Shown: positions 4,658 through 30,906 of the stretch, piece by piece
How positions within the stretch are numbered: position 1 is the first letter of the stretch
Layout of the letters: each line of letters starts with the position of its first letter
Virus record (IMG/VR): IMGVR_UViG_3300009433_000029
Coordinates: 1-30,906 of that record
DNA length: 30,906 nt
Reading direction: 5' to 3' (one strand)
From: a virus
Notes under the pieces: generated by a model
The model's database searches: none
What the model saw: the letters and a program-made list of their open reading frames with translations, nothing else
What the model was told of the DNA's origin: nothing
Program-made: the position numbers and the translations under genes

Positions 4658-5815
4658 ATGGAATTAAAAGTAAAAGCAGTAGAAGCTGTAGAAGAAAAAT
4701 CAATGCAAGAAGTCGAAAAAGAACTTCTTGACAAACATGAAGAAAAATTAATTGAGGAAGATAAAGCAGCAGAAGAAACTCCTCAAGTAAAAATGGACTT
4801 TGCGGAAGATGGCAGTGATAAAACTGTTAATGAAGCAAAAGAAACTTCTGAAGAAAAACCAGAGCCAGTTCAAGAACCGGCTGAATTATCTGAAGAGGAC
4901 GTTCTTTCATATATTGGAAAAAGATATGGTAGGGAAATTAATTCATTAGATGAATTAAATGCAGCCAGAGAAGAAGCTGAAGAGCTTCCTGAAGATGTTG
5001 CATCCTACTTTAAGTATAAAAAAGAAACAGGAAGAGGTATTGAAGACTATGTAAGATTACAAAAAGACTTTAGTGCTATGAATCCTGATACTTTGCTAAG
5101 AGAGTATTTGACAATTACAGAAGGCGAAGGTTTAGACCCTGAAGATATAGATTCTCTAATGGAGGATTTTTCTTATGATGAAGAACTAGATGACGAATCT
5201 GTAGTTAAAAAAACTAAACTAGCAAAAAAGAAAACTATTGCCAAAGCAAAGAAGTTTTTTAATGAGCAAAAAGAATTATACAAGCAGCCCCTTGAGTCGA
5301 GACCGGCTGCTGATTCTCAGAGCAACAATGAAGAACTTCAAGAGTATAGGCAATATTTAGAATCTGCTAAAACTCAACAACAGGAAAGTGAGACAAAACG
5401 AAATTGGTTTTTAAAAGAATCCGATAAAGTTTTTACTGATGATTTCAAAGGTTTTGATTTCGTGCTTGACGACAAAACAGTAACTTTCTCTCCCGGTGAT
5501 GCGCAGACCATTAAGAAAAATCAAGAGACTCCGATGAACTTTATTAATAAGTACTTGGATGACAAGGGTTTAATTAGTGACGCTGCCGGATACCATAGAG
5601 CTTTATCAATAGCAATGAATCCTGACAAATTTGCCAACTTCTTTTATGAACAAGGCAAGTCTGAAGCTACGGAAGATGTGATACGCAAAACTAAGAATAT
5701 AAATATGACTGAGCGTAAAACACCTGAAATAACTAATAAGGGAGGATTTCAAGTTAAGTCAGTTAACCCTGATTCGGGACGAGGCTTAAAAATAAGAAGT
5801 ATTAAACGAAAATAA
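4658..5815 (+). CDS. Putative head scaffolding protein
   Basis: 385 residues between the portal and major capsid genes, the usual place for a scaffold. The first 90 residues are extremely rich in Glu and Lys with little hydrophobic content, the middle is predicted helical and acidic, and the last 20 residues are basic (SGRGLKIRSIKRK), as expected of a scaffold whose C-terminus binds the capsid inner surface. A short segment near residues 265-320 (FDFVLDDKTVTFSPGD, then MNFINKYLDDKG) looks like a small folded domain. No protease signature is visible, so I do not call it a prohead protease. The ATG at 4658 follows an A/T-only leader (AAATTAAATTAA) and the promoter element at 4632. Function is inferred from position and composition, not from a recognised domain. 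Confidence 0.6.
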   Translation: MELKVKAVEAVEEKSMQEVEKELLDKHEEKLIEEDKAAEETPQVKMDFAEDGSDKTVNEAKETSEEKPEPVQEPAELSEEDVLSYIGKRYGREINSLDELNAAREEAEELPEDVASYFKYKKETGRGIEDYVRLQKDFSAMNPDTLLREYLTITEGEGLDPEDIDSLMEDFSYDEELDDESVVKKTKLAKKKTIAKAKKFFNEQKELYKQPLESRPAADSQSNNEELQEYRQYLESAKTQQQESETKRNWFLKESDKVFTDDFKGFDFVLDDKTVTFSPGDAQTIKKNQETPMNFINKYLDDKGLISDAAGYHRALSIAMNPDKFANFFYEQGKSEATEDVIRKTKNINMTERKTPEITNKGGFQVKSVNPDSGRGLKIRSIKRK

Positions 5816-16285: not shown

Positions 16286-16885
16286 ATGATGCTAATAAAA
16301 GAAGAGAGGAAGTATGTTCCGTATGACCCTAGTCCACTACAGCCAATTACTAGAGCAACCAAAAAAGGTTTTCAAGTATTAGATGTGCCTCCAGCGGTAT
16401 ATAGTATACTTGTTGATTTTTATGACAGAGCTCAGTTTCAAGAAGAAAATTATCCAGGGAAGGAGGCTTATTCAAAACAAGTAAGTTTTTTACAAGACAT
16501 AAATCAACACCAAGATAAAGTAAATTTTATAAAATCAACCATGCTTGATTTACATCAAGAGTGGTGTCAAAGAGATTTAAACCCAGCTGTAGTTTATGGC
16601 GTAAGAAGTTATAGTAATAACACCATTTTTAATGCGCATTTTGACAGACAAGATACCCATCATGTTGCTTCTAGTATTACTCTTGGAAAAGATGCTCCTT
16701 GGAATTTAAATATTCAAGACCATGATAATCAGTGGTGGGGAGTAGATGTTGAACCCGGTCAAATGATTATGTTTGAATCTGGATGCTGTATGCACGGAAG
16801 ATTGGATAATTATCAAGGGACTTACTTTGACAATATATACACACACTTTACTTACGCAGAACCGTTTACTCCTTATGAAGGATAG
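16286..16885 (+). CDS. Prolyl-4-hydroxylase-like 2OG/Fe(II) dioxygenase
   Basis: 199 residues. The double-stranded beta-helix signature is clear in the C-terminal half: FNAHFDRQDTHH gives the iron-binding His118-x-Asp120, and CCMHGRLDNYQG gives the distal His170, after a typical DVEPGQMIMFES strand. The distal motif, an H-G-R followed by a Tyr-x-Asn-Ile-x-x-His-Phe strand, resembles proteins annotated as prolyl 4-hydroxylase-like in algae and marine microbes. The usual Lys ten residues after the distal His is not there (Tyr180), so 2OG anchoring must differ. Enzymes of this class hydroxylate protein side chains with O2, Fe(II) and 2-oxoglutarate. Being directly after a protein with a 44-proline linker makes peptidyl-proline a natural candidate substrate, but that is inference. 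Its end overlaps the next gene by 11 bases. Confidence 0.8.
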   Translation: MMLIKEERKYVPYDPSPLQPITRATKKGFQVLDVPPAVYSILVDFYDRAQFQEENYPGKEAYSKQVSFLQDINQHQDKVNFIKSTMLDLHQEWCQRDLNPAVVYGVRSYSNNTIFNAHFDRQDTHHVASSITLGKDAPWNLNIQDHDNQWWGVDVEPGQMIMFESGCCMHGRLDNYQGTYFDNIYTHFTYAEPFTPYEG

Positions 16886-17939
16886 ATATATATCTTTTGA
16901 TTGGTGGTGGGGTGGTTTTAATAATATTCGGATGTGCTATGAGATGGTTGGAGCTATGTCATATGTTTCAGGAAGAAAAATTATATTACCTCCTCTAGGG
17001 TATTGTTTATTTTTAGCAGAGCATCACGACAAAAAAACTTTTTGGGATATTTGGGAAATACTAGATAAAAAAGCGTTTACAGATAATTTTGATTGTATCG
17101 ATTATAAAGATACTGACCTTGTAAAATATTCTTCAGAGATACAAAACTATGATGGTATATGTAAAGACATTAAATGTGTAATGTTTAACGATACAGACAT
17201 AAACTGGGGTCCTCAAAAGTTTATAGGTAAAGGTCTTATATACCATAGTATAGAAGATATAAATCACTTTAACGAATTTAATTGTGACAACAGAGAATTT
17301 TTATATGATATTATGTGTGAAGATAAAATCATACATTTTCCTAGAAATTTATTGGGACATTTTGGATACCATGTATATCCTCCTAACGACAACGCAAGAA
17401 GGATAATACAGCAAAAAGTAAAAGATGGTATAAAGTTTAGAGAAGAGTTTTTTGTACAGTCAAAAAAACTTATGCCTGGCGACTATGACGCTGTGCATAT
17501 AAGAAGAGGAGATTTTAAATATACACAAACACAATGGACAGAAGACCTTTACAAGAATCTTGAAGCATTATTAGATGGAAGTGTCAGAAAATCAGTACCT
17601 TTATACATAGCAACTGATGAACCTGACTTATCAATGTTTGATTTTTTAAAAGAAAAATATAATACTATTTTTTTAAAAGACTTAACACAGTCTAGCAAAA
17701 GCCATGAGTTAGTTTTAGACACTATTATATGCGCCAATGCTAAAAACTTTTATGGCTCTAGGATGTCTACATATAGTGATTACATAAATATAGTTAGAGG
17801 CTACAATGGTGAAATAGACCATCACAGAAAGTCTTTAAACTTTGACAGAAAACAAATTCAATACAATAAATACCCTTGGGAATCAGAGCCCTACAACTGG
17901 CAAGACCTTTGGGGTGAATTATATTATGGCAAAATTTAA
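16875..17939 (+). CDS. Protein O-fucosyltransferase-like glycosyltransferase
   Basis: 354 residues from the ATG at 16875. An in-frame upstream extension (to 16773) only reads through the preceding gene out of frame and is rejected. The N-terminus has WWWGGFNNIRM and then SGRKIILPP, like the GGxNNxR entry of O-FucT enzymes. The donor-binding motif VHIRRGDF (His208, Arg210, Arg211, Asp213) matches the HxRRGD peptide common to alpha-1,2-, alpha-1,6- and protein O-fucosyltransferases. YIATDEPD (244-251) and GSRMSTYSDYINIVRG (294-309) complete the GT-B C-terminal half. The expected donor is GDP-fucose or a related nucleotide sugar; the acceptor may be protein (Ser, Thr or hydroxyproline) or glycan. 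No membrane segment is seen, so it acts in the host cytoplasm. It overlaps the genes on both sides by 11 and 14 bases. Confidence 0.8.
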   Translation: MKDRYISFDWWWGGFNNIRMCYEMVGAMSYVSGRKIILPPLGYCLFLAEHHDKKTFWDIWEILDKKAFTDNFDCIDYKDTDLVKYSSEIQNYDGICKDIKCVMFNDTDINWGPQKFIGKGLIYHSIEDINHFNEFNCDNREFLYDIMCEDKIIHFPRNLLGHFGYHVYPPNDNARRIIQQKVKDGIKFREEFFVQSKKLMPGDYDAVHIRRGDFKYTQTQWTEDLYKNLEALLDGSVRKSVPLYIATDEPDLSMFDFLKEKYNTIFLKDLTQSSKSHELVLDTIICANAKNFYGSRMSTYSDYINIVRGYNGEIDHHRKSLNFDRKQIQYNKYPWESEPYNWQDLWGELYYGKI

Positions 17940-19386
17940 TTTAGGAATACACGGGTCTCATAATGCAGCAATAGCTCTATCTTATGGAGGAGACATTCTT
18001 GAGGTAATAGAATTAGAAAGATGGGTGCAAATAAAAAATGCAGCATTTTTTTATTACCATCCCATACTTAACCCTATTGAAGTTTTAAATGAAATATTAG
18101 ATTACTTTGAATTAAAACACGGGGCAAAAGAATATGATTATGCTATGACAAACTCTTGGCCTCAAGAACACAATAAAGATTTAAGAGCTGCTAATGTATT
18201 GTATGTTCCACATCATGAAGCACACGCTTGTAATGTAATGTATCATTCAGAGGCTAAGGAATCTTTAATTGTTTCTTTTGATGGAGGTTCTGATAATGGT
18301 CATTTTAATATATATTTAGGTGAGAAAGGACAACATCCTCAACTTATACATCAATCAGAAAAAGATTTATGTGTTCCTTACGCTGCTTTAGGGCATTATA
18401 TGGGGGACATAACAAGAGAAAGGGATTGGTGGTTTGGTAATTTAACTTATGCCGGTAAAGCTATGGGGCTATCATCATATGGAAAAAGAGATGATGAAAT
18501 GTTTGGTTATGTAACTCGTTTATATGATATGAGTAACAGCAACGAGATAGATAAAGCTCATAAAAATTGGTCAGAAATGTTTTGTGGTTGTCATCAAAAA
18601 GATGAAAAATCTAAAGACCTTGCCTATGCTAATCAGTATATGTTTGAAAAAAAGTTTGCAGATATTGCATTGCCTTTTATATTTAAATATCCAGATAGAG
18701 AAATACAGTTTGCTGGCGGCGGCGCTATGAATATATTAAACAATACCACATATAAAGCTTTTGTTTCTCCTAACTCAGATGATAGAGGTATAGCATTAGG
18801 GTGTTTATTAAGTTTAATTAAACCTTCTGAGCCTGTAGACAGCACTTACTTAGGCTCTGAACCATACGATGATATACCTGAAGGTAAAGATATAAGTGTA
18901 GGCGAAGTGTCTCAAATGTTATTACAGGGTAAAATAATAGGATTAATACAAGGACGAGCAGAACACGGTGCTAGAGCTTTAGGAAATCGCTCTATACTTT
19001 GCACACCCAAACAAGGAGTAAAAGAAAGATTAAACTCAGAGGTAAAAAATAGAGAGTGGTTTAGACCTTATGCCGGAGTGTGTAGAGAAGAAGATGCCCG
19101 TCAATATTTTAAGTCTTATGGCAGGCACAGGTGGATGACTCACAATGTAAAAGTAAAAGATAGTCGGTTTCCTGGAATAACTCATGTAGATAAAACTTGT
19201 AGGCTTCAAACAGTTACTGAAAAACAAAATAAATTTATATATGATTTGCTAGAGTATCACCCTGTATTATTAAATACCTCTTTTAATATTCAAGGCAAAC
19301 CAATATTAAACACTTATAAAGAAGCTATGTGGATGAAAGAAAACACAGGAGTAGATGAAGTAATAACCGATAAATATATATTATAA
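17926..19386 (+). CDS. NodU/TobZ-family O-carbamoyltransferase
   Basis: 486 residues from the ATG at 17926; the longer in-frame opening (17842) lies in the previous gene. These enzymes transfer a carbamoyl group from carbamoyl phosphate, via carbamoyl-adenylate, to a sugar hydroxyl. The Kae1-like N-domain shows LGIHGSHNAAIAL (6-18), the metal-binding HHEAH (96-100), SFDGGSDNGH (117-126), GKAMGLSSYG (177-186), AGGGAMN (263-269) and PNSDDRGIALG (282-292). The YrdC-like C-domain shows GRAEHGARALGNRSI (343-357), WFRPYAG (378-384) and LNTSFN (449-454). All key family motifs look intact and the length is only slightly under the usual 520-600. In this operon the natural acceptor is the sugar added by the preceding glycosyltransferase; alternatives are lipopolysaccharide or capsule sugar, or hydroxymethylated DNA. 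Confidence 0.9.
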   Translation: MAKFNLGIHGSHNAAIALSYGGDILEVIELERWVQIKNAAFFYYHPILNPIEVLNEILDYFELKHGAKEYDYAMTNSWPQEHNKDLRAANVLYVPHHEAHACNVMYHSEAKESLIVSFDGGSDNGHFNIYLGEKGQHPQLIHQSEKDLCVPYAALGHYMGDITRERDWWFGNLTYAGKAMGLSSYGKRDDEMFGYVTRLYDMSNSNEIDKAHKNWSEMFCGCHQKDEKSKDLAYANQYMFEKKFADIALPFIFKYPDREIQFAGGGAMNILNNTTYKAFVSPNSDDRGIALGCLLSLIKPSEPVDSTYLGSEPYDDIPEGKDISVGEVSQMLLQGKIIGLIQGRAEHGARALGNRSILCTPKQGVKERLNSEVKNREWFRPYAGVCREEDARQYFKSYGRHRWMTHNVKVKDSRFPGITHVDKTCRLQTVTEKQNKFIYDLLEYHPVLLNTSFNIQGKPILNTYKEAMWMKENTGVDEVITDKYIL

Positions 19387-21829: not shown

Positions 21830-22240
21830 ATGAAATTAAATATTAGACCACTTGAAGAGTCTGACTATGAGCAGATTTTAGTAGGTTGGTGGAAAGATTG
21901 GAAATGGGAAGCGCCTGTTAAAGATTTTTTACCAGATGAAGGTAAAGGTGGTTTAATAGTTTATGATGAAAAAATACCTGTTTGTGCAGGATTTATATAT
22001 ATGACAAATTCAAAAGTAGCTTGGGTAGATTGGATTATTTCTAACAAAAATTATACTGATAGGGCTAACAGGAAGGCTGCTTTAGCTTTGTTAATTGACG
22101 CTCTTACTAGAGTAGCGCAAAGCGCAGGAAATAAATTTACATACGCCCTTATAAAACACGATGGTCTTATTAAAACATATGAAGAGCTGGGTTATATTCA
22201 AGGAGATAGTTACAATAAAGAAATGATAAAAGTATTATAG
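21830..22240 (+). CDS. GNAT-like acetyltransferase-fold protein
   Basis: 136 residues. The layout fits a small GNAT fold: N-terminal beta strand and helix (NIRPLEESDYEQILVGWWK), a central strand pair (GGLIVYDEKIPVCAGFIYM, then SKVAWVDWIISN), a loop and helix where the acetyl-CoA pyrophosphate is normally held (DRANRKAALALLIDALTRV, about 77-95) and a last helix-strand with YEELGYI, the common GNAT ending. The canonical Q/R-x-x-G-x-G/A loop is degenerate, so catalysis is uncertain. Similar small proteins recur in virion modules of marine Bacteroidetes phages. The substrate is unknown; given the location it may act on a virion or host protein, or have a structural role. One base separates it from the next gene. 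Confidence 0.65.
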   Translation: MKLNIRPLEESDYEQILVGWWKDWKWEAPVKDFLPDEGKGGLIVYDEKIPVCAGFIYMTNSKVAWVDWIISNKNYTDRANRKAALALLIDALTRVAQSAGNKFTYALIKHDGLIKTYEELGYIQGDSYNKEMIKVL

Positions 22241-24900: not shown

Positions 24901-27900
24901 ATGGATAAAATACAAGCTCTTTATCAATCTTATTTAGATGCAGGAATTATAAGTCCTTCAACTACATTAGAACAGTTTGCAACTGCTAATGAAGAACAAT
25001 TATCCACGCTTTATAATCAAGGAATAGAATCTAATATTATAAGTTCAGAAACAAATATTGATTTATTTACATCAGCTTGGGGCTTAAAAAAAAAAGACGC
25101 ATCGGTTACGGTTTCAGAATCGGAAAGTGGTTTATCGGGGCAACAAAAATATCCTCCAGGCTATCCATATGAAAATTATTACAGCGAAGAGAAAGATACT
25201 TTTATAGAAAGAACTTTTGGAAAAAATCCATTAACAGATTTTTTTGGAGATATTTATCGCTCAGGGGTACAAGGTCTAGCTCAAGGAGCAACTGTTGATG
25301 ATGCCTTAAACCTTTTTACATCAGGAAAAGATATTAATCAAGAAGACCTTCAAGAATATATTGAAGCTGTAGAAAAAATGGAAAGCTTTACTCCATCAGA
25401 CGAGATGCAGGAGTTTGATGAAATATACCAATCAGAAGGCGGAGGTATAATGGGATTTTTAAAAGGAGTCTCTAAAAACCCTACAGTTATTCCACAAATA
25501 TTTACTTCATCTATGTTTGCTATGATGAATAAAGGTTCTTTGGCTGCGGGTGCTACAGGTGGTTTAGCAGCAGGAGCAATTTCTGGTGGCGCATTTGCTT
25601 TACCGGGAGTTATAGCTGGTTTATCTGGGGCACTAGAAACCGGTGTTTCTTTTACAGAGTTTTTAAAAGAAGAGTTGGGCGACAAAGAATTTAATGAAGA
25701 AAACATTAGAGAAGTCTTAAAAGACCCTGCTAAGCTTGGAAAAATAAAAGCAAGAGCCACTGCAAGAGGTATATCAATAGCAGCAATTGATGCCTTAGCT
25801 GGTGGAGTAGCAACAAAGCTAGGTGTAAAAGCAGGTAGAGCTTATGGTAAACTTGCAGCTACAGCTGCTGGAGGTGGAATAGAAGCGTTGGGCGGGGGTA
25901 CTGGAGAAGTAGCAGCCAGAGCATTAGCTGGTCAAGAAATGGATGTAGCAGAAGTTGGATTTGAAGCCTTGGCAGGCACAGCCACTGCTCCTTTAACTAT
26001 AGGTGCAGCGCTTTATAAAATGCCTAAATATGAATTGGGAGGAGAAAAAATAAGTAGAAGACAGTTGCTAAAAACTATAGAAACATCTACGCCTGAAGAA
26101 ATAATTGAGATTGCCAACAGTAAAACAGGGGTCACAATAACTAATGATGAAGAGCTTAGTAATTTGTTTGATAAAGCTTATGTAGAAGCTAATATTAAAA
26201 AAGCAACACTAGAAGTAGTTCCTAATATAAGTGAAAAAGATTTAAATGAAATAGTAAAGCTTGCTATTAGAAAAAATTTTTTAGAAAATAATGAAAGCCC
26301 TTCTGCAAAAGTAGAACTTACTAAAATTAATAACCGTATAAAAGAAATAACAGATGCCGTTCAAGAGTCAAGCCCAGAGAAGGTGGATGTACAAGAACAA
26401 GCCAAAGTTGGCGAAGAGGTGGGAGTCGGAGACACCACCGGGGGAATTGCCACAGAGATTACATCCGAAGAAATTAAAACTGCCGAAGTTCCAAAAGAAG
26501 AGGTTATCGAGCTTACTGAAGAGCAGAAGGATGAGGTAAGTGATTTAGAATATATTATTGGTACACCAAAAGGACAGAAACCTAAATTCAGATTGTCGGA
26601 AGAGGAAAGTGTCGTTGAAGACACTGAAGCTATTGAAGAGACAATGAATCAGTTTGAGGAGCAAGAATTAAATTTTACTCCTACTGAAACAACTGAACAA
26701 AAAGCTCCTGTTAATCCAGTAGCAGAAAGCAAATCTACTACTAAAATAGAAGAATCCGCAGCAAATAAATTACTTAAAAAAATACAAGAATTTAATGGTA
26801 TACCTATGCTAACAGGTATTACAGATATGTTAGCCGCTGGTGTAATAGAGGATTCTCAAGGTAACCCCATGGAAGTGGAAGGTGGTGTATTATATAATGT
26901 ATTAGGTAAAAATAAAAACTTAGCTTGGGCAAATGTTACAAAAGAAACAGCGCAAAAACAATATAATAATGCTGTAGAGCTTTACAATAATAACAAAGAG
27001 TTATTTGATAAGCTTTGGGCTGATAAAACTTTACCAAACGGTCATGTTCCTATGGCCATTATGAGGATGGGAGACAGTGCATTGCACTCTAATGAAGCCG
27101 TTTTTAGATATGTACTCCCGGCATTAAACGCAGTGCCTAAAGCTAACAATCAAAAAGCATTAGACACCTTTATCGATACATTAAGAAACAGCAAAAAAAA
27201 CAGAAAGAAAGTCGATGCTGTTCTTAAAGCAATTAATGATAATAATATAAAAGGTCTAAATGAATTATTTAATTTTATAGTTAAAGATGCAAATTCCAGA
27301 GCACAAGGAGATGTAAATAATACTTTAGCTTTAGATGCAAGAAGTCTTATATATGATGTTATATTTTCAAAACCAGGTAGAAAAACCAATAATTCTCAAG
27401 TAGTAAAAGATTTATTTAAAGGAATAGAAAACAGAAGTGAATTGTTTTTATCAGACACTATTTACGAAGCAATTGGAGAGCCATCTGTTAAAAACGCAAG
27501 ACAGGGAGAGGTTATGTCGATTGTTGGTGTAGATGTGTTGACGGGAGGCGTAGAAAAAACACAGCACCCTAACTACGGATACGGTCCAAAAGGACAAGCT
27601 ATAGCTCTTATTAGTAATCCAACACACGGAATTGAGGTTTTTCCTGAATGGAAAGCAAAATCTAACAGAGTATTTAAAAAAACTAAACCAAAAACAGAAA
27701 CGTCCAAGAAAAAAGGAGCTAAGTTTCCAAGTGAAACACAGGTAGAGCAGCAGACCATGGGAGCTTTTGCTACCGACAAAGCTTTTACAGGGGCTAAAGT
27801 TAAGGCTGGTGAAATGTCTGATGTTGATAATCTGATAGGTATGTTGAGGCTGGCTTTCCCTGGTGTTAATGTAGCAACAACACAAGAAGAGTTTGATGCT

Positions 27901-30900
27901 ATACTAGAAAGTCCAGGAGTTAGAACCAGAGAGACTAAAGGAAAGACTATACTTGGTATAACGGTAGACGGTAAAATATATTTAAACCCTGACTCAACAT
28001 CATTAGCAACCCCAATACACGAGTTTGGACATATATGGCTTGATTATTTACGTTCAGATTCTTCTGGTAAAAAAAGTACAGCCATTCTAAATCAAGGTCT
28101 AAAACTTATTGAGGGAACAGAAGCCCTTAAAAAAGCTATAGATAAATATGGTAATAGTGAATTAGCTAGAGAAGAAGCTTTAGTTGAACTCATGGGAACA
28201 AAAGGAGATACCATAGCTAATGCAGCTAAACGCTCTAGGTTTAAAGAATGGCTTAACGGATTGTTTAAATATGTTAAGGAGATGTTTACTCGCTCCAAAG
28301 ACATTAAAAAAGAAGATGTAAAAAATTTAACTTTAGAAGACTTTATAAATATAGGTCTAGCTGATTTGTTTGCTGGTAAATTAATTAACGGCAAGTTTGA
28401 TGCTAAAACTGCTGAGAGTTCTGCTAAGGCTAGGTTTGAATTATTAGAATCTATAGGAGGACCTGAGCTTTCAATGCAGGAGATAATAGAAACTGGAAGA
28501 GCTGAAGGTTTTTCTGACGCTGCTATTAAAGCAGTGTTGCAGGGCAGAGGTTTTAAAGCTGCTGACATAAACCCCGCTATGGAGTTAGCTCTTAAAAAGG
28601 GAGAAACATTGCCCGCAGCTTTTCAACAAATAGAAGGAGGAGCAGAGAGAGGATTAAAATTATTTAGAGATGTTCAGACTAAACTAAAAAGATACAAGAA
28701 TACAAAGAATCTTAAAACAAAAGAAAAGCCAACTTCTGCTCAAGTAAGAGAGAAGGCATTAAGCCTTTTAAAAAATACTGAAGTATATAAAAGCTTACCA
28801 GAAATAACACAGGATGCATTAGTGTTGGCGCTTGATAAATCTGTAGACACTAGAGCTAACGCATCTGTGCAAAAAGAAATAACTAGAATCAAGAACGCTG
28901 TTAAGGGTTATAAAAAAGGAGTAAGAGATTTAAGGAAAGCTCAGATACAAATAAAAAACTTTATAAGAAATGTATTACCTGTATCGCAGGGCTACTCTCA
29001 GTCTGTAGTAAATAATCTTATATCAAATGTTACAGCTATAACTGCCGCAAAAGATTTACCTGTAACTGTAGAGAAGGTACTTAAAAAGGTAGATGCAGAA
29101 AGAGCTAGACAAAAGAAGAGATTAATAAAGGATATAATAACTTTTGTAAACAAAAAATCAAAAGGAAGAAAAACCAGGAGTAATAAATCAAGAGCTGGTA
29201 GTTTAGATGCTCAGGGTAAAGATTTCTTTACTGCTATAAAGAACGTATTTAAATCTACACCAGAAGAGCTAGAAGTTAAAAGGGCAGAACTCGCAGATAA
29301 GTCTACTAAAATAGATGAGCTTACATTAAAAGAAACAAGAGGTGAAAAGCTTACGATACAAGAAAATAAATTACTTGATGAATCATTAGCTTTTGATTTG
29401 TTTGCGAATTTAGAAAATCAATCTATTGAAGATATACAAAGTTTATTTGAAGATTTAAAAGCTGGAGCAAAGGAGTCTATAAAAAGATTGAATCAAAGAA
29501 AAGCCGCAGAAGCAGAAAGAGCTGCAAGAATTTCAAATGATTTTGAGTCTCAAATAAAGGGTGATTTTGAAGCTCTTGTAAATGAAGATGGTTCTATTAA
29601 AGATGCCAATCAAAGAAGACAAGACAAAGAGCGTATCTTACAATATTTTAGAGAGCGTAAAATATGGGAAGGCACAAAAGCTTATGTAAAATATTTTGGC
29701 GCACAATTAACCACAAGTCCATTTCAATTTGTTCGCAATTGGTTTGGTCATCTTGGTTCGATAACCGAAATATTAGATAGATATAAACCCGGAGTGTTTA
29801 AAAAATATTTATATGATGATGTAAATGTAATGGAAGAAAACTCTCTTCGAGGAAAGTTTCAACAAAGAGATATTATTGATAATATAGCAAATACTATTGA
29901 TGGTATTGAGGGTGGATTTAAAGAGATACTGTCTAAATTTAAAGCTTTAAAAGTAGAAATTAATGTAAATGGTGAAAAAGAATTTTATTCTGACGATGAG
30001 CTTCTTCGTATTTATGCTTTGAGTTTAAACGATGTTCAAAAACAAAAGTTGAATAACCAAGGTTTTACTGATAAAGTATTATCAGATGTTGAATCTAAAT
30101 TAGACAAAGACCTTATAGAGTTTGCTAATAAAATTGTAGAGTATTTTAGCAGTACCTATTATGAGAGCGTTAATGATGTTTACTCTTCCGTAAATAATAT
30201 AAATCTTGGGTATGTAGAAAACTACTTTCCTACTAGAACTATCTCAAAAGAAGTAAATAAAACATGGTTGCAAGAACAATCTTTTGCAAAAATATTTGAT
30301 GCTGAAACTTCTCCTGCATTTAGAGAGCGAACTGATAAAACAAATAAAATAGATTTAAATCCCTTCTTAACTTTTACAAATGTTATGAATGAGCACATTG
30401 AATCTATGGAAAAATACAAAGCTTTTGCTCAGGGTGTAAAAGATTTAAACACCATAATGAATAATGAAAGCGTAAATGCTGTTTTTGAGGAAATGGGTAG
30501 TTTTAAAGTTGTAAGTGAAAGTTTAAATCACATACTTAATCCAGATTATGGATTAAAAGAGACGCAGGGTATATATGGCCCTTTATTTAACGCTTTTACT
30601 GGATATGCGCTCGGATTTAAATTGATACAAATTCCCAAGCAAGCTACTTCTTTTGTAAATGCCTTTGAAGAATACCAATACATAAAGGGAAAAAACACTC
30701 CAGGTTTAGACCATGTGGCTTTTATGGTTGAGTCTCTAATAACTTTAGGGTCTTTATTCACCAAAGATTCTGCTTACAAAAAAGCTTTTGAAAAGTCAGC
30801 TACATTTAGAGAAAGAGTATTGAGAGGACTTGAAGGTGATATATATGGATTAGAAACTGGAGGTAGATTAGGTTTAAAATCCGAGAAAAAAAGAAAAGAA

Positions 30901-30906
30901 TATATA
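24901..30906 (+). CDS. Giant polyvalent virion protein with zinc-protease motif (3' partial)
   Basis: At least 2002 residues, open to the right edge with no in-frame stop. Residues 1-60 are two copies of a 30-residue helical repeat (LYQSYLDAGIIS..., LYNQGIESNIIS...) ending GLKKKD. About 200-245 is a Gly/Ala-rich hydrophobic segment (glycine zipper type) and 290-345 is also Ala/Gly-rich; both may enter membranes. An acidic linker spans about 480-620. A zincin motif HEFGH is at 1040-1044 with Glu residues at 1091-1096 (EEALVEL) as possible third ligand. Long Lys/Glu helices fill about 1200-1560. Near 1771-1780 is YVENYFPTRT, then LGFKLIQIPKQATSF, both typical of large polyvalent phage proteins. 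I expect it to be packaged and ejected with the DNA, with protease and envelope-penetration functions. No RNA polymerase DxDGD motif is present in this part. Confidence 0.8.
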   Translation, partial: MDKIQALYQSYLDAGIISPSTTLEQFATANEEQLSTLYNQGIESNIISSETNIDLFTSAWGLKKKDASVTVSESESGLSGQQKYPPGYPYENYYSEEKDTFIERTFGKNPLTDFFGDIYRSGVQGLAQGATVDDALNLFTSGKDINQEDLQEYIEAVEKMESFTPSDEMQEFDEIYQSEGGGIMGFLKGVSKNPTVIPQIFTSSMFAMMNKGSLAAGATGGLAAGAISGGAFALPGVIAGLSGALETGVSFTEFLKEELGDKEFNEENIREVLKDPAKLGKIKARATARGISIAAIDALAGGVATKLGVKAGRAYGKLAATAAGGGIEALGGGTGEVAARALAGQEMDVAEVGFEALAGTATAPLTIGAALYKMPKYELGGEKISRRQLLKTIETSTPEEIIEIANSKTGVTITNDEELSNLFDKAYVEANIKKATLEVVPNISEKDLNEIVKLAIRKNFLENNESPSAKVELTKINNRIKEITDAVQESSPEKVDVQEQAKVGEEVGVGDTTGGIATEITSEEIKTAEVPKEEVIELTEEQKDEVSDLEYIIGTPKGQKPKFRLSEEESVVEDTEAIEETMNQFEEQELNFTPTETTEQKAPVNPVAESKSTTKIEESAANKLLKKIQEFNGIPMLTGITDMLAAGVIEDSQGNPMEVEGGVLYNVLGKNKNLAWANVTKETAQKQYNNAVELYNNNKELFDKLWADKTLPNGHVPMAIMRMGDSALHSNEAVFRYVLPALNAVPKANNQKALDTFIDTLRNSKKNRKKVDAVLKAINDNNIKGLNELFNFIVKDANSRAQGDVNNTLALDARSLIYDVIFSKPGRKTNNSQVVKDLFKGIENRSELFLSDTIYEAIGEPSVKNARQGEVMSIVGVDVLTGGVEKTQHPNYGYGPKGQAIALISNPTHGIEVFPEWKAKSNRVFKKTKPKTETSKKKGAKFPSETQVEQQTMGAFATDKAFTGAKVKAGEMSDVDNLIGMLRLAFPGVNVATTQEEFDAILESPGVRTRETKGKTILGITVDGKIYLNPDSTSLATPIHEFGHIWLDYLRSDSSGKKSTAILNQGLKLIEGTEALKKAIDKYGNSELAREEALVELMGTKGDTIANAAKRSRFKEWLNGLFKYVKEMFTRSKDIKKEDVKNLTLEDFINIGLADLFAGKLINGKFDAKTAESSAKARFELLESIGGPELSMQEIIETGRAEGFSDAAIKAVLQGRGFKAADINPAMELALKKGETLPAAFQQIEGGAERGLKLFRDVQTKLKRYKNTKNLKTKEKPTSAQVREKALSLLKNTEVYKSLPEITQDALVLALDKSVDTRANASVQKEITRIKNAVKGYKKGVRDLRKAQIQIKNFIRNVLPVSQGYSQSVVNNLISNVTAITAAKDLPVTVEKVLKKVDAERARQKKRLIKDIITFVNKKSKGRKTRSNKSRAGSLDAQGKDFFTAIKNVFKSTPEELEVKRAELADKSTKIDELTLKETRGEKLTIQENKLLDESLAFDLFANLENQSIEDIQSLFEDLKAGAKESIKRLNQRKAAEAERAARISNDFESQIKGDFEALVNEDGSIKDANQRRQDKERILQYFRERKIWEGTKAYVKYFGAQLTTSPFQFVRNWFGHLGSITEILDRYKPGVFKKYLYDDVNVMEENSLRGKFQQRDIIDNIANTIDGIEGGFKEILSKFKALKVEINVNGEKEFYSDDELLRIYALSLNDVQKQKLNNQGFTDKVLSDVESKLDKDLIEFANKIVEYFSSTYYESVNDVYSSVNNINLGYVENYFPTRTISKEVNKTWLQEQSFAKIFDAETSPAFRERTDKTNKIDLNPFLTFTNVMNEHIESMEKYKAFAQGVKDLNTIMNNESVNAVFEEMGSFKVVSESLNHILNPDYGLKETQGIYGPLFNAFTGYALGFKLIQIPKQATSFVNAFEEYQYIKGKNTPGLDHVAFMVESLITLGSLFTKDSAYKKAFEKSATFRERVLRGLEGDIYGLETGGRLGLKSEKKRKEYI
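26354..26539 (+). CDS. Overprinted small basic phage protein (MPFKS family)
   Basis: 61 residues in a different plus-strand frame, wholly inside the giant gene. The start, MPFKSQAQRRWMYKNKPKLA then KRWESETPPGELPQ, is what I recognise as a widespread small phage protein of unknown function (typical form MPFKSKAQRRxMYxxxPxxAxRWExxTPxGxLP). A spurious ORF should not match such a signature. The block is abruptly GC-rich: 55 of the first 100 bases are G or C, against 12 of 60 at 26221-26280. It uses AAG for 10 of 12 lysines, whereas neighbouring genes prefer AAA. In the giant frame the same DNA reads as an acidic, low-complexity linker (residues about 485-547). No promoter element is seen ahead of the ATG. 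It may be a live nested gene or a captured gene now read only in the giant frame. Confidence 0.5.
   Translation: MPFKSQAQRRWMYKNKPKLAKRWESETPPGELPQRLHPKKLKLPKFQKKRLSSLLKSRRMR

Follow-up and report, generated by a model that had tools for sequence, protein, structure and literature searches.

The window analyzed here, that is the whole stretch of 30,906 nucleotides, is a 30.9-kb IMG/VR virus record in which terminase, portal, capsid and virion genes are located 5' of a giant gene whose complete relatives encode proteins of 1600-4160 aa (Table 1). Wholly within the giant ORF, and in its +1 frame, lies a 61-codon ORF running from ATG to TAA, which is the longest among the off-frame ATG ORFs of the giant gene, the runner-up having 38 aa. 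An earlier note on this DNA had described the nested ORF and its position in an acidic linker of the giant protein, and both are confirmed, as is the unusual composition reported there: lysine is encoded by 10 AAG and 2 AAA codons in the nested ORF versus 36 AAG and 162 AAA in the whole giant, and the GC content is 0.478 versus 0.343, with the increase beginning near the nested ATG. A Pfam search with the window giant returned no domain above the cut-off; a HEFGH zinc-peptidase-like motif can be read from its sequence. Elsewhere in the window, a ferrochelatase-like gene (phrog_2954, 16286-16885) and a Nol-like carbamoyltransferase gene (phrog_1601, 17842-19386) are found amid the virion genes.

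Table 1. Features of the window considered in this study.
Feature	Position	Strand	Basis
Nested gene, 61-aa basic protein MPFKSQAQRRWMYKNKPKLAKRWESETPPGELPQRLHPKKLKLPKFQKKRLSSLLKSRRMR	26354..26539	+	ORF and translation; family in hundreds of phages; purifying selection on the nested frame
Giant residues 485-547, linker sharing its DNA with the nested gene (DAVQESSPEKVDVQEQAKVGEEVGVGD...)	26353..26541	+	Giant wobble positions constrained here
Host giant gene, phrog_32588, virion/polyvalent-like protein, incomplete at contig end, 2002 codons seen	24901..30906	+	ORF; PHROG match
In-frame TAA shortly 5' of the nested ATG; no Shine-Dalgarno site	26348..26350	+	Sequence
TTC-AAG, nested Phe3-Lys4; TTC for Phe avoids TAA in the giant frame	26360..26365	+	Codon comparison, nested versus standalone copies
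Marker gene, 136 aa, acetyltransferase-like, phrog_17252	21830..22240	+	Sampling independent of the nested gene; tree
Scaffold-like gene between portal and capsid genes, 385 aa, block absent in the window	4658..5815	+	Alignment with L237 and L228

The product of the nested ORF belongs to a family of small proteins of 40-65 residues, whose core has the form MPFK[SN]xxQ...P...W followed by a Lys/Arg-rich tail; in the window copy, the N-terminal MPFKSxxQ motif precedes the conserved Pro and Trp and the basic tail (alignments A1, A3 and A6). The family signature which the note had recognized as occurring in many phages is borne out by searching the 61-residue protein against phage proteins: at least 481 related stretches are present in IMG/VR, some of which carry the small gene on its own with no giant frame over it. 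The profile phrog_1375 is matched weakly by the window copy (E 0.0044) and more strongly by standalone members (9.7e-5 for L221 and 2.5e-4 for L211). An NCBIfam search with the 61-aa product gave no match, and no report of the family was found in the open-access literature, the motif string included. The gene is generally present in single copy, with one match in 49 of 50 records of one set (two matches occur in the 105-kb record G014) and in 29 of the 30 positive records of a second set. In cultured phages, the nested ORF is present but not annotated in NC_055852 (small protein MPFKSKAQMKACYSQDNPKWDCKKWSKETPNKKSLPNKVKKK), where it lies at 54224 inside the giant KNV10_gp21 of vB_FspP_elemoA_7-9A, a phage infecting Flavobacterium sp. 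BAL314, and in MW202828. The small domain can also form the N-terminus of longer standalone proteins (L078 4001-4606, 201 aa; L215 6001-6717, 238 aa), and in a two-cysteine subfamily, MPFKxKAQMKACYxxxxPxWDCKKW, found in L147, L161, L173, L238, L266 and others, the usual helix turn is replaced by a stretch whose two cysteines are possibly a metal or disulfide site.

The location of the small gene relative to larger genes was followed in several samples; their counts refer to sequences and not to independent events, since IMG/VR contains near-duplicates and each search covers the best 80 loci. Among the best 80 of the at least 481 stretches retrieved with the nested protein, the gene is nested in a longer ORF, in constant relative frame, in 70 (71 of 81 close relatives with the window), stands directly behind the stop codon of the giant in eight, and is standalone in other phages in two (L074 and L078). 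A broader sample of 80 loci (A7) comprises about 62 standalone and 18 nested copies, the latter in the same frame each time, with L341 doubtful. Because sampling by the nested protein favors its conservation, a second sample of 80 loci was drawn with the 136-aa marker gene, located upstream. Of these 80 loci, at least 36 carry the small gene inside the giant, with the relative frame unchanged, and 13 have it directly behind the giant once longer sequences are considered, the remaining loci either running off the locus end or being undecided. A copy was not detectable in two near-complete relatives (G052 and G053), nor was one detected in the Cellulophaga phages phi18:3 and phi46:3 or in the Maribacter phage Panino, so that the small gene is not universally required. 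On the marker-gene tree the two states, nested and behind the giant, need at least five changes, a number which is only indicative as support is low and giants recombine. The marker protein itself is very well conserved, being matched in 80 cultured phage records, and is annotated as an N-terminal acetyltransferase subunit in MW202828. In one contig (L113 7480-15571), the giant is split into 1410 and 1252 codons by a frameshift or an assembly error, while it forms a single frame in close relatives.

The comparison of giant homologues advocated in the note gave a mixed outcome, in that the nested state is found in most close and many distant relatives, whereas in one giant (L110) the block is absent and the flanks align: residues 50-486 and 569-1177 of the window giant align with residues 49-499 and 695-1302 of L110 at 34% and 51% identity, respectively, and between these flanks L110 has other sequence and no nested gene, the small gene being located behind its stop codon. 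As the flanks align without the nested gene, the small gene is added or lost as a block. The sequence standing in its place in L110 (residues ~499-695) is domain-like, and the site gives the impression of an insertion hotspot for modules. Other candidate empty sites were discarded, because the N-terminal part of the giant is not alignable in L125/L200, whose marker protein is 90% identical to that of the window, and neither is the region around the site in L205/L206 versus L207. An origin by gene fusion, with the N-terminal part of the giant, the small gene and the C-terminal part joined by read-through, was also rejected, as giants followed by the small gene are colinear on both sides with the nested giants.

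A second home of the small gene was recognized in two MAG contigs (L228 and L237), which share about 50-58% identity with the window in the portal and capsid proteins and carry the gene within the orthologue of the 385-aa window gene; in the alignment, the nested block corresponds to a gap in the window gene, with the flanks aligned. This host is called scaffold-like by its position and predicted shape only: in the AlphaFold model of the L237 protein the nested region has pLDDT <50, hence is predicted to be disordered, and is followed by long helices, and a PDB fold search gave no significant match to a solved structure. When IMG/VR was sampled with the scaffold-like host protein, the small gene was nested there, in constant frame, in 72 of 80 loci, making this gene the common home in the phage group and the giant the home in the lineage of the window; a later search placed matches inside the scaffold-like gene also in L309 and L312, by position only. 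Further hosts are a second giant family (L329, L335, L349, L364, L388 and others), a 701-aa gene (L350) and a 1743-aa LPD38 protein (L217), an LPD23 domain being present in the L329 host. Within a single phage group, the small gene therefore occupies at least three different positions, and elsewhere it is found in several host genes unrelated to each other. The group carrying the embedded copies is large and consists of mostly marine, Bacteroidota-type phages.

In the overlapping pair, the nested frame is under purifying selection and the host frame is free of stops. Across 30 sister pairs, 54, 35 and 143 substitutions fall at nested codon positions 1, 2 and 3, respectively. Nested position 2 coincides with the wobble position of the giant, and in 44 pairs, compared with no formal phylogenetic model and with some noise from the alignment of diverged linkers, changes per giant codon at positions 1, 2 and 3 are 0.266, 0.172 and 0.143 over the nested gene, versus 0.265, 0.195 and 0.362 upstream and 0.275, 0.214 and 0.388 downstream of it. 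Likewise, in the scaffold-like host, sampled by host protein, wobble changes drop from 0.341 and 0.339 in the flanks to 0.202 over the nested gene. A pattern in which giant residues 485-547 are conserved and the nested frame is broken was not seen.

Codon choice is consistent with this double constraint. The giant frame is stop-free in all 103 distinct nested copies, versus none of 24 AT-rich standalone copies (mean 5.9 stops). In AT-rich genomes, Phe3 is encoded by TTC in 84 of the 84 nested copies having Phe, versus 4 of 24 standalone copies, the other 20 using TTT (p 4e-18), because TTT followed by AAR would produce TAA in the giant frame; the TTT-bearing nested copies of the scaffold-like set (L290 and L291) have CGN and CAR as the next codon, so that no stop is formed. 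Lysine AAG:AAA counts in AT-rich genomes are 431:175 for nested and 56:91 for standalone copies. Not one of 20,000 random synonymous recodings of the nested peptide, made with the codon usage of the giant, left the giant frame open, hence the double opening is not due to chance. The two products have opposite charge, +0.30 per residue for the nested protein versus -0.23 for the overlying host peptide. At the level of sequence, the case that both frames would be translated, as the note had considered possible, is strong, with indirect support from the start-site signal described below. Dual coding also accounts for the GC and lysine-codon oddity, which the note took as a mark of foreign origin and which is instead needed to keep the giant frame open.

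As far as initiation is concerned, Shine-Dalgarno (SD)-like sites are found at none of the 14 main genes of the window and at 1 of 103 nested starts in its lineage, indicating that this lineage initiates without SD; in the scaffold-like gene, they occur at 2 of 72 nested starts. Outside that group, an SD site is present at the nested start in 12 of 13 cases, versus 18% of control ATGs (p 1e-8), and the same Met is the start of the standalone genes. Nesting, family membership, dual constraint, relocation and the start-site signal of SD-type phages can all be read in the sequences; from these we infer that the nested product is translated, and when. On balance, positions 26354-26539 of the window probably harbor a genuine protein-coding gene in an internal frame, expressed late from a start of its own, whose small basic product would aid head assembly or DNA packaging.

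Several other explanations of the locus were weighed. The note had proposed a recent insertion of a foreign gene into this one giant, overprinted by chance read-through, and part of this history stands, as both the giant of L110 and the scaffold-like gene of the window testify to gain or loss of a block; moreover, a GC-rich source would be feasible, since standalone copies from GC-rich genomes are often open in the right frame (20 of 28), and GC and lysine codons do differ from the surrounding giant. However, a recent arrival should be missing in close relatives, yet L120, L121, L123 and L126-L131 all have the nested gene, as do many distant relatives and several host genes, and the compositional signals follow from dual coding. 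With a nested state that is old and spread over diverse relatives and unrelated hosts, in single copy and with at least five steps on the tree, a one-off insertion in the phage of the window is therefore quite unlikely. The same mobility could denote a selfish element, similar to the out-of-frame homing endonucleases hidden in phage genes, for which a precedent exists (PMC11855218), rather than a morphogenesis gene; the different positions and hosts of the small gene and the open host frame would fit. This reading is unlikely, though, for a protein of only 40-65 residues with no endonuclease family match, present once per genome and accompanied, in its standalone form, by packaging genes.

Two further explanations deny that a separate small protein is made. 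In the first, the conserved element is the giant-frame linker (DAVQEQSxxEVxVRD...) and the MPFKS frame its untranslated by-product; in its favor, the host-frame peptides over the nested gene are recognizably alike between unrelated hosts (e.g., L393 versus L090), but standalone copies encode the same protein without any giant frame, changes concentrate at nested third positions while giant wobble sites are constrained, and SD sites precede the nested ATG, all of which renders this extremely improbable. Programmed frameshifting out of the giant, yielding a fusion to its N-terminus, is geometrically compatible with the +1 overlap. Nevertheless, it is very unlikely, since the copies retain the ATG-Pro start, which corresponds to the N-terminus of the standalone proteins, an in-frame stop a few codons 5' of the ATG in nearly all copies leaves little room for a shift, and SD-type phages have SD sites at the ATG; these sites and the Met shared with standalone genes favor independent initiation.

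According to the favored reading, an independently initiated nested gene, the small-gene coding sequence would come to lie within acidic, disordered linkers encoded by late virion genes, commonly by the scaffold-like gene and, in the lineage of the window, by the giant, the host frame always being the +2 frame of the nested one. Avoiding T at nested third positions would remove host-frame stops, mostly without changing nested residues, and Lys AAG read across the codon boundary as Glu GAA would turn a basic protein into an acidic linker. Standalone copies open in the needed frame are 20 of 28 in GC-rich genomes versus 0 of 16 in AT-rich ones, which suggests that embedding may be easy from a GC-rich state and then be held by the stop-avoidance rule. 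Ribosomes would translate the giant straight through and, on that same late mRNA, begin the small protein at an ATG of its own, with initiation presumably SD-driven where the phage uses SD and SD-independent in the window. As a short protein of two helices and a Lys/Arg tail, the product might bind nucleic acid or an acidic partner in head assembly or DNA packaging.

The last is the weakest step: that the protein assists head assembly or packaging as a late accessory, probably through binding to nucleic acid or to an acidic partner, is put forward tentatively on the basis of gene neighbors, charge and the AlphaFold model. The latter shows two confidently predicted helices and a tail (mean pLDDT 76), and gave nothing significant in a PDB fold search. 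Overall, the small protein is an old tailed-phage family whose standalone members are often found among terminase, portal and capsid genes: they lie near the large terminase in L324, L327, L363, L212, L236 and L216, near a portal or connector gene in L341, L372, L396, L212, L074 and L219, and near the major head protein in L219; other neighbors are a DNA polymerase gene (L211) and a holin, adjoining the copy of the Streptomyces phage FlowerPower. In Cellulophaga phage phi18:3, which lacks the small gene and has a giant that is distantly related at best, the giant in the syntenic position (gp123) is a virion protein by MS/MS. A bolder and rather doubtful extension is that the gene is relocatable and has inserted time and again, out of frame, into disordered acidic linker regions of virion genes unrelated to one another, its frame being fixed by the AAG-to-GAA property of the code; each insertion would make a linker opposite in charge to the small protein, which may bind it, so that the dose and location of the small protein would be tied to the host virion protein.

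Known proteins and gene arrangements resemble this locus in part. The N-terminal motif and size range of the window product are shared by PHROG 1375 and unnamed MPFKS(x)AQ proteins (e.g., in FlowerPower, gp48, and in phage 023Pt_psg01), whose genes, however, are ordinary standalone ones instead of lying in another frame of a virion gene. In the lambda Rz/Rz1 two-component spanins, for which embedded, overlapped and separated architectures are described (PMC6139136), Rz1, like the MPFKS gene, is a small gene that lies entirely within a larger one, classically in the +1 frame of the latter, and both nested and separate versions exist in nature. Rz1, however, is an outer-membrane lipoprotein and the lysis partner of its host gene, whereas the translation of the 61-aa basic product has neither a signal peptide nor a lipobox cysteine; furthermore, no single family mixes embedded with separated architecture in the spanin survey (PMC6139136), while the MPFKS family does so and switches host gene. 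In ShiLan, a phage methylase gene has been reported to contain an HNH endonuclease in another frame (PMC11855218), and there, as for the MPFKS gene, an out-of-frame gene was added as a block with the host frame open through it; the former is a homing endonuclease with a GTG start and no recognizable RBS, the latter a basic protein with an ATG start and a very wide phage range, and the 61-aa product has no Pfam or NCBIfam endonuclease match. Finally, the phage polyvalent proteins (Iyer et al., 2017; PMC5512222) are likewise giant late proteins, composed of many domains and encoded in the vicinity of virion genes; LPD domains occur in two of the other nested hosts (L329 and L217), while the window giant has no Pfam domain above threshold. 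In the passages searched, that paper makes no mention of genes nested out of frame.

The usual view of nested genes in tailed phages is one of fixed pairs, Rz/Rz1 being an example. The MPFKS family instead offers standalone, directly adjacent and fully nested forms, in several unrelated hosts and in many environmental phages, while it is unannotated in the cultured genomes checked. Its copies, often open beforehand when GC-rich and never when AT-rich, provide natural replicates for how one gene gets embedded in another, and the cultured Flavobacterium phage allows this missing small protein to be tested for. A second off-frame basic ORF (MENKKDNKMSRSERLRLQAFKNFQEKKKQNQSQ...) occurs in the giants of phi18:3 and phi46:3 (L240 13508-13621, and L241 for phi46:3), the two phages being nearly identical there.
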